In this document: piece by piece, positions 16,179 to 21,635 of the stretch | Layout of the letters: every line of letters starts with the position of its first letter | Numbering within the stretch: the first letter of the stretch is position 1 | Source: Afipia sp. Root123D2 | Lineage (GTDB): Bacteria > Pseudomonadota > Alphaproteobacteria > Rhizobiales > Xanthobacteraceae | Direction of reading: 5' to 3' | DNA length: 64,000 nt | NCBI RefSeq assembly: GCF_001425835.1 | Contig: NZ_LMDP01000002.1 | Location: 838,828 to 902,827, forward strand | The notes under the pieces: generated by a model | Seen by the model: only the letters and a program-made list of their open reading frames with translations | Databases searched by the model: none | Told to the model about the DNA's origin: nothing | Position numbers and translations under genes: made by a program

Positions 16179-16874
16179 CTAGGCCGCGTAACCGGGCACA
16201 TTGCGCGCGAGGCCGCCAAAGGCATCAAACAGCTTCTCGCGCCATGCGTGGACGGGGTCGTCCTCTTTCAGCAGCTTGAACGGGCTGACGATACGCGCCC
16301 ACTGGAACGGGCCGAACACGATGTAGTCGGCGTAGTTCGGCTTGTCGCCGCCGAGGAACGGCTGTGTCTTCAGTGTCAGCCGCAGCGGGTCGAGACTTTT
16401 GCGGAACGCATCGATCTTGTGGTCGCGCTCGGCCGAGACATCTTCCAGCGGGCGGCCAAGACGTGCCTCGCGGCTTTCGCGGAAATAGATCTCATCCTTC
16501 TCGGGCAGGTGCTGCGGAATGTCTGCGACGATCAGCGGAAAGATACCGCCGAGCACCACAGTATCGCCCCACCAGTTCAGCATTCGGCCCATGGCGCGGC
16601 CGCCTTCGCCGCCGAACAGCGACGGACGATCCGGATAAGCGTCATCGAGATAGTTGGCGATGACCCACGAATCGACCACCGCCTTGTCGCCGTCGAGCAG
16701 CACCGGGACCTTCTCCGATTTGTGCGGGCGGATCGCGTCCTTCTCGGTGAAGCGCCACGGAATCGTTTCATGATCCAGCCCCTTGTGGGCCAGCGCCATG
16801 CGCGTGCGCCAGCAATAGGGGCTGAACACACGCTCCGAATCCGTGCCGCACAGTTCGAACAGCTTGCGCGCCAT
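16179..16874 (-). CDS. glutathione S-transferase (LigE-like)
   Basis: Glutathione transferase homologue, 231 residues. The N-terminal domain shows ELCGTDSERVFSPYCWRTRM, where a serine near SPYCW could be catalytic, then KVPVLLDGDK and VVDSWVIANYLDD for glutathione binding. The helical C-terminal domain has PNYADYIVFGPFQWAR. The N-terminal signature resembles beta-etherase-type GSTs of sphingomonads, though this is a common fold variant and no lignin-pathway genes are near. Two bases separate it from the next GST gene upstream on the same strand, so the pair is one operon. Confidence 0.88.
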   Translation of the reverse strand: MARKLFELCGTDSERVFSPYCWRTRMALAHKGLDHETIPWRFTEKDAIRPHKSEKVPVLLDGDKAVVDSWVIANYLDDAYPDRPSLFGGEGGRAMGRMLNWWGDTVVLGGIFPLIVADIPQHLPEKDEIYFRESREARLGRPLEDVSAERDHKIDAFRKSLDPLRLTLKTQPFLGGDKPNYADYIVFGPFQWARIVSPFKLLKEDDPVHAWREKLFDAFGGLARNVPGYAA

Positions 16875-16876
16875 GA

Positions 16877-17578
16877 TTAAGCCTTCACCACAGCAGCGGT
16901 CTGGCCGAACAGCACCTTTTTCTGTTCGTCGGTACTGATGGTGGGGTTCGGATTGATCTTCGGACCCTGTTCATAAGCCCGCACGGTCGCGGGCCGCGCG
17001 CGAATGGCCTCGAACCAGCGCTTCAGATGCGGGAAGTCTTCCAGCTTCTGGCCCTGACGCTCGTAAGGCACGATCCACGGATACGCCGCCATGTCGGCGA
17101 TCGAATAGTCGCCTGCAACGAACTCCCGGTCGGCGAGACGCTTGTTCAACACGCCATAGAGGCGGTTGGTTTCGTTGACGTAACGGATGATCGCATATGG
17201 AAGCTTTTCCGGAGCATAAACCGAGAAATGATGGTTCTGGCCGGCCATCGGGCCGAGGCCGCCCATCTGCCACATCAGCCACTGGATCACGTCGAAGCGC
17301 TTGCGCAGATCCTGCGGCATGAACTGGCCGGTCTTTTCCGCGAGATACATCAGAATCGCGCCGGATTCGAAGATCTTCACCGGCTCGCCGCCGTCCGTCG
17401 GCGCCTGATCGATGATCGCGGGCATGCGGTTGTTCGGCGAGAAAGAGAGGAATTCCGGCTTGAACTGATCGCCCTTGCCGATATTCACGGGATGAATTTT
17501 GTACGGCGTGCCGGTTTCTTCGAGAAACATCGTGATCTTGTGGCCGTTTGGCGTCGGCCAATAATAGAGATCGATCAT
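16877..17578 (-). CDS. glutathione S-transferase (YfcG/Ure2p-like)
   Basis: Glutathione-dependent disulfide-bond reductase-like protein, 233 residues. The start at 17578 gives MIDLYYWPTPNGHKITMFLE, matching YfcG/YghU-type nu-class enzymes in which Thr and Asn of TPNG replace the catalytic Ser/Cys. NNRMPAIID and IFESGAILMYLAEKTG follow, and the C-terminal domain has the YSIADMAAYPWI motif. An extension to 17674 is not needed. It is first of a two-gene operon with the GST at 16179, a tandem pair of different GST classes. Confidence 0.92.
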   Translation of the reverse strand: MIDLYYWPTPNGHKITMFLEETGTPYKIHPVNIGKGDQFKPEFLSFSPNNRMPAIIDQAPTDGGEPVKIFESGAILMYLAEKTGQFMPQDLRKRFDVIQWLMWQMGGLGPMAGQNHHFSVYAPEKLPYAIIRYVNETNRLYGVLNKRLADREFVAGDYSIADMAAYPWIVPYERQGQKLEDFPHLKRWFEAIRARPATVRAYEQGPKINPNPTISTDEQKKVLFGQTAAVVKA

Positions 17579-17806: not shown

Positions 17807-18581
17807 TTACATGCCGAGAATGGCGATATCCTTCACTGTGCCGCTGACGCCGGAAATCCTGACGGCTTCGGTGGCCTTGCCGGTCGCGAGATCGACGCTG
17901 TAGAGCGTGTCGCCCGCCATCAGCCAGCCTTCGTTCTTCCCAGACGAATCGGTGGAGATATCGAACGCAGCATTATCGGCCTTGATGCCGAGCTTGCCGA
18001 TGGCGCTGAGAGTGCCGTCATTCGGCGGAGCCTGCTTGATGAGGCCGCTGATGGTGCCGTCGATGTTGAGCAGCGTGGTTTCCTTGGTTCCCTTCACCGA
18101 GTTGGTATAGGCGCCGGCGACGATGTTCGGCTTTTCGCCCTTGTGCATGTCGCCGTCGGCGTATTTGTGGCTGCCGTCTTTCGTCACCTTGCCGTCATCG
18201 ACGTTGCCGCGCAGGCTGGTGCCATCCGAACTCATGATGCGGATGCGGTCCGCGGCAGGATTGAAATCGACGGTAATAGCGCCGCCTTGCGCCATGGTTT
18301 CGAGTTTCGATTTCATCGTTGCCTTGCCGTCCTTGGCAACGGTGACGACCGTGCCGTCATCGACGACCCCCGTAGAGCATGCCGTCGGCGGGGCGCACAT
18401 CGATCCCGACCAGAGCGCCGGAAATGCCGCTGACCTTGACGGTTCCAGTCACCTTCTTCTGCGCGGTATCGACCATGGCGATAGTGTCGCCACCGATCAG
18501 GGTCGCAACTTGCGCGGCGTTTGCCGCAACTGAGGTCATCAACAGTGCCGCTGATGCAGCGACGAGCGAACGAACAATCAT
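17807..18581 (-). pseudogene. DUF4394-like exported protein gene with a single-base frameshift
   Basis: The N-terminal part starts at 18581 (GGGAG upstream) with a signal peptide MIVRSLVAASAALLMTSVAA, then QVATLIGGDTIAMVDTAQKK and LVGIDVRPADGMLYG, after which the frame stops at RR*. The next frame continues without a gap as GVVDDGTVVTVAKDGK and runs to 17807 with DUF4394-like content (ITVDFNPAADRIRIMSSDGT, repeated beta-propeller-like segments). Removing one base from the run of five C on the plus strand (18367-18371) restores a single frame of 257 residues. Either a real inactivating mutation, a phase-variable tract, or a sequencing error. No other lesion is seen. Confidence 0.8.
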
Positions 18582-18764
18582 GGACACACTCCCTTGTGAA
18601 ATCGGCGACGATGCCGCGCGAGCTACGGCAGCGAACAACCGCCGGTTTCCGTTTTGCGGCGCTTTGCCCCGCGTCCCGGTGCCACATCGACAGGTCCTGA
18701 GGATATTTTTTGCGAGGGAACAATCGGCCTTCCAACCGCCGAAAATTCTTCCCATATTGCGTCC

Positions 18765-21635
<2,871 letters not shown>

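Follow-up and report, generated by a model that had tools for sequence, protein, structure and literature searches.

A single-base frameshift in a DUF4394 gene of Afipia sp. Root123D2 that lacks the usual sigma/anti-sigma neighbours

The only DUF4394 gene found in the genome of Afipia sp. Root123D2 is split by a one-base frameshift in a run of five Gs, and the divergent sigma/anti-sigma operon that precedes the gene in most orthologous loci is absent from this spot. The locus was studied within a 64,000-nt stretch of DNA (the window). Taken as a whole, it most likely represents an ordinary and recent single-base inactivation, or a sequence error, of a dispensable gene for an exported protein. 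The features concerned are the following, in coordinates of the window.

16179 to 16874, minus strand: second glutathione S-transferase-like (GST) gene, named from its sequence
16877 to 17578, minus strand: GST-like gene downstream of DUF4394, named from its sequence
17807 to 18581, minus strand: DUF4394 gene, frameshifted, for a predicted exported five-bladed beta-propeller protein (profile match; fold from the model of an orthologue)
17807 to 18370, minus strand: downstream piece in the shifted frame, remainder of the propeller (profile positions 42-230, 183.9 bits; dN/dS 0.124)
18357 to 18581, minus strand: upstream piece of 74 aa with start codon, signal-peptide-like segment and about one blade, after which the frame is lost and a TGA reached (profile positions 2-42, 28.0 bits)
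18367 to 18371, minus strand: G5 run, the point of frame change, read in the sequence and not conserved
18582 to 18767, no strand: 186-nt gap to uvrB, in which the sigma/anti-sigma operon and the two inverted elements of most orthologous loci are absent (locus comparison)
18589 to 18594, minus strand: AGGGAG, Shine-Dalgarno-like site, retained in aligned orthologues (sequence and orthologue alignment)
18768 to 21635, plus strand: uvrB, the divergent neighbour, with the ATG start at 18768 picked by eye

The gene starts at ATG 18581-18579, and its first frame is closed by TGA 18359-18357 to give the 74-residue product. The second frame is open from ATG 18400 down to 17807 (197 aa) and ends in the stop of the gene, TAA 17809-17807. 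Both pieces abut on a single Pfam profile, DUF4394 (PF14339), and jointly cover its positions 2-230; against a cut-off of 29.6 bits, the upstream piece alone falls slightly short. The original prediction, that a one-base change at the run divides one exported DUF4394 protein, is borne out by these adjoining matches, and the start, Shine-Dalgarno site, signal-peptide-like N-terminus (judged by eye) and stop all lie where it had placed them. The junction also fits the propeller continuation that it expected, with orthologues having LYG[L/V]VDDG there. By its full profile and its invariant residues the gene belongs to the PF14339 family, but its reading frame is interrupted where a family member has a single open one. 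Neither piece contains any other disabling change. PHROGs and NCBIfam searches of the split gene returned nothing significant, as did a sequence search of the downstream piece against solved structures (best E 0.1). A 714-codon open frame runs on the minus strand from 18357 to 20501, antisense through most of uvrB and into the start of DUF4394; high G+C probably accounts for it, because in the orthologues compared the frame stays open over a much shorter distance upstream of DUF4394.

Modelling of the intact orthologue from A. clevelandensis with AlphaFold2 gave a structure (mean pLDDT 88.8, pTM 0.84) of 20 strands, which may be read as five blades of four. Among the 50 Foldseek matches listed from the PDB, the best are beta-propellers such as YWTD domains, with E-values of 4.6e-08 to 2.8e-06 and TM-scores by query of 0.37-0.55. 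The frame in Root123D2 is lost after residue 71, so that the short product would amount to approximately one predicted blade.

Orthologues were compared across the junction in the best 80 of 441 relatives, a sample to which loci L003-L009 do not belong. The frame is continuous over the junction in 80/80, and in 79 of them it also spans the 70 upstream codons, the last (L014) ending at a contig end. The original prediction had called for such an alignment and held that homologues terminating at the same position would speak against a broken gene; all 80 continue past it and none terminates there. The longest G-run at the site is one in 24 of these orthologues, two in 48 and three in eight, and neither the tract nor the split is conserved among them.

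This variation bears on two readings in which the run would serve a function. Slippage in the G run could toggle the protein on and off, as in a phase-variable contingency locus, a reading that would suit a homopolymer situated one unit out of frame within the first third of a gene for an exported protein. Known contingency tracts, however, are usually seven or more units in length, whereas five-base runs are ordinary in this DNA: 19 C5 and 8 G5 occur in the window, 160 C5 and 94 G5 in 564 kb of the Root123D2 genome, and runs of up to eight are present. In place of an unusually long tract that varies around a conserved repeat, the site carries a run of ordinary length whose counterparts in the best 80 of 441 relatives never exceed three Gs. 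Alternatively, programmed ribosomal frameshifting or transcriptional slippage could still yield the full-length protein. The run would permit a glycine tRNA to re-pair one base on, with a stop three codons later, and the downstream frame is conserved. Against this, none of the same 80 orthologues would need such a mechanism, the run is not conserved, and the RNA of 18290-18400 is predicted to fold no more stably than its 200 shuffled versions (z = -0.42). The usual marks of a programmed site, a conserved slippery sequence with a split frame and a stimulatory RNA structure, are thus not seen here, the fold test being purely negative evidence. Since runs of this length are commonplace in Root123D2 and the orthologues do not conserve this one, both readings are unsupported; phase variation is very improbable, and programmed frameshifting is equally hard to credit.

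The original prediction had left three readings open, of which phase variation falls away. Recent inactivation and sequence error both stand, with the former moderately favoured. The state of preservation of the gene is good. In a 32-sequence alignment, the two pieces together keep 49/49 family-invariant residues and 101 of the 105 residues conserved at the 29-of-32 level. Between the downstream frame and its counterpart in genome G004, dN is 0.109 and dS 0.879, and the resulting dN/dS of 0.124 ranks 44 of 197 ORF pairs compared with G004 (median ratio 0.199). Relative to close relatives, a mild excess of changes is apparent. Of 127 columns invariant in 10 such relatives, the Root123D2 copy differs at 11, compared with 0-6 when each relative is left out in turn, and its pairwise dN/dS values are 0.098-0.175 versus 0.054-0.102 for nine pairs of relatives. 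This excess would fit slight relaxation or a lineage that evolves a little faster. If the inactivation is real, it is a recent one: with so little decay visible, the gene has either been inactivated very recently or contains an isolated sequence error.

An isolated sequencing or assembly error, with an intact DUF4394 gene in the living strain, is a serious candidate, though one that falls short of probable. The change sits in a homopolymer, no further disabling change accompanies it, all invariant residues remain and purifying selection is visible. The assembly speaks against an error without deciding the matter. It is judged not to be frameshift-prone because, when 564 kb of the Root123D2 genome were compared with 500 kb of G004, a single frameshift, that of DUF4394, was found in 195 genes (61,005 aa), the genes being non-overlapping, uncurated ORFs with at least 55% identity and the test missing shifts near gene ends and genes that have no G004 match. 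This rate was measured against G004 only, as stretches of G006 and G007 shared almost no genes. The 564 kb contain no N, and their 254 G5/C5 runs are associated with no second frameshift among the compared genes. The assembly itself comprises 4.8 Mb in 7 contigs with 99.93% completeness, and the window lies within contig C2 (1.26 Mb). The reverse scan yielded two frameshift candidates in G004 among 185 genes. Another candidate in Root123D2, corresponding to a 91-codon ORF of G004 at 75683-75959 of a 164-kb stretch, is absent from the filtered list.

The state of the gene does not by itself separate the two readings, since all 49 residues are kept, dN/dS is 0.124 and the orthologue in genome G026 is intact although it too has no adjacent sigma gene. 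A real and recent inactivation, by insertion of a single base in a short G run of the sole DUF4394 gene in the genome, is moderately favoured because only one frameshift was found in 195 genes, the gene is patchily distributed in the genus and its regulators are already lost; on balance we consider it probable.

In orthologous loci, DUF4394 is preceded by two divergent genes. The first encodes a protein with sigma-70 regions 2 and 4, of the ECF type (5/5 tested), and the product of the second has an RskA anti-sigma C-terminal domain, RskA_C (4/4 tested). NCBIfam agrees in kind for this pair, with most equivalog models under their cut-offs. Among the best 80 of 441 relatives, the sigma gene adjoins DUF4394 in 76 of the 79 loci with upstream sequence, L014 being excluded because of a contig end on its upstream side; in the other three (L019, L035 and L039) it does not. 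Between the two genes lie two inverted promoter-like elements, approximately 17 nt apart, with the consensus GCATCC...GTA. The consensus occurs on one strand in 75/80 and on the other in 72/80 of these best 80 loci, counts that include faulty L014 rows and some chance matches. Intact DUF4394 genes for which no adjacent sigma gene was found were observed at L019, L035, L039, L165, L170 and L174, and at L170 and L019 a GCATCC element is still present upstream.

Root123D2 departs from this arrangement. No adjacent divergent sigma/anti-sigma genes occur in the 64-kb window, and neither CATCC nor GGATG is present in the gap between DUF4394 and uvrB. Orthologues of the pair, which have 76-100% identity in the 6 of 29 genus genomes that carry them, were not found anywhere in the Root123D2 genome. 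Its best matches to the sigma and anti-sigma factors have 42% and 28% identity, and they correspond to a pair that G004, G006, G007 and G021 possess as well as the true orthologues. This second ECF sigma/anti-sigma pair of the same kind (identities relative to the A. clevelandensis pair) is located at C2:760671-762136 and has counterparts in most genus genomes.

Within the genus, the locus occurs in several states. Only 9 of 29 genomes have a DUF4394 match, including Root123D2 and a remnant in G015, and seven of these copies are intact. The order in G020 is uvrB, anti-sigma, sigma, DUF4394 and GST. In G026, uvrB is followed by an intact DUF4394 gene with no sigma pair, and GST does not follow (judged by eye). 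Root123D2 has uvrB, the broken DUF4394 gene and GST; a GST-like gene also follows DUF4394 in L015 and L016. G015 retains a 30-residue 3′ remnant (L010:1501-1593), situated away from contig ends. In G011, G012 and G019, uvrB and GST are neighbours with no module between them, and in G002, G003, G005, G008, G010 and G014 GST lies approximately 1.3 kb from uvrB with no match to the module. The gaps upstream of DUF4394 in Root123D2 and G026 are homologous, with 128 identities in 194 columns and an alignment score of 41, where 200 shuffles gave no more than -25. Both gaps contain matching blocks, among them GGCAAA-CGCCGC and GAAACCGGC...CGTAGCTCG, which could perhaps serve the orphan gene as an alternative promoter.

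These states fit a stepwise loss. We infer its order and direction, because Root123D2 and G026 are not resolved in either the DUF4394 or the UvrB tree and the Bradyrhizobium locus L018 has no GST or uvrB match beside its module. The intact gene of G026 stands in the same sigma-less arrangement, and loss of the regulators therefore does not force decay.

A family-wide sample of 296 genomes gave 88 with a DUF4394 match, of which 85 copies are intact and three are broken (Root123D2, G083 and G277). G083 bears an independent frameshift near residue 145 (L184:887-1656) and has no sigma gene in the 886 nt upstream, and G277 retains only the 3′ part, residues 181-256 (L185:1466-1693), away from contig ends. 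A sigma gene is adjacent to 68/85 intact versus 0/3 broken copies (Fisher P = 0.010, or P = 0.0025 once the G015 remnant is added to the broken set, with relatedness ignored in both). The 68 consist of 27/30 in L154-L183, 6/7 genus copies and 35/48 others. Some of the 17 intact copies in which no adjacent sigma gene was found may be search misses, because the search in distant genera used a single A. clevelandensis sigma query with a reach of approximately 0.9-1.4 kb. It is also possible that truncating deletions removed gene and neighbour together.

The following course can be proposed. In its intact state, the locus would encode a small exported five-bladed propeller, transcribed divergently from an ECF sigma factor and an RskA-type anti-sigma factor. 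The sigma factor probably controls DUF4394 and, acting at the two elements, would drive both its own operon and the propeller gene. Until a signal is received, it would be restrained by the anti-sigma factor in the membrane, and the exported propeller may act in the periplasm. In Root123D2, the sigma pair and the shared elements, whose absence is observed, would have been deleted from this spot and control lost with them. Loss of the regulators apparently preceded the frameshift, leaving the propeller gene an orphan that a single-base insertion in the G run would then have inactivated. Translation would now produce a 74-residue protein of approximately one blade, presumably non-functional if made. 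Loss of the orphan would cost little, because the sigma pair is absent. On this view, the frameshift would have come late in the piecemeal loss of a dispensable module, with other genomes displaying other states.

Recent frameshift pseudogenes typically have a single indel in a short homopolymer, an otherwise intact gene and a patchy distribution in relatives. As assembled, the Root123D2 gene resembles them in all of these respects, but differs in that its neighbouring regulators were apparently lost earlier. A parallel for the intact module is offered by SigK/RskA, for which a SigK site upstream of mpt83 has been reported (PMC7509140). Like that system (ECF18/ECF19 type), the orthologous loci appear to combine an ECF sigma factor and an RskA_C protein in a divergent two-gene operon beside a gene for an exported protein. 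In contrast to SigK/RskA, a DUF4394 propeller is the exported partner here, sigma control is suggested by the elements and their position, and the Root123D2 window is without the pair altogether. In the literature searched, there was no mention of DUF4394, and no paper dealing with SigK, RskA and a beta-propeller together was found.

The frameshift itself is ordinary, and the sigma/anti-sigma/DUF4394 module is the more informative finding. As a tentative proposal, which we regard as possible rather than probable, DUF4394 would be the exported propeller partner, as a target and perhaps also as a sensor or modulator, of an ECF sigma/RskA-type switch that is widespread in Alphaproteobacteria and undescribed in the literature searched, and the window would capture an intermediate of its dismantling, regulators first and effector second. 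In 76 of the 79 loci with upstream sequence, a family with no assigned function is tied to an ECF sigma/RskA-type pair with paired promoter-like elements, providing a regulon that can be tested and an initial hypothesis on what DUF4394 does. Within one genus, the intact, orphaned, broken and empty loci form a natural series, and this series, if the proposal is true, could be used to test what role the propeller has once the switch is gone.
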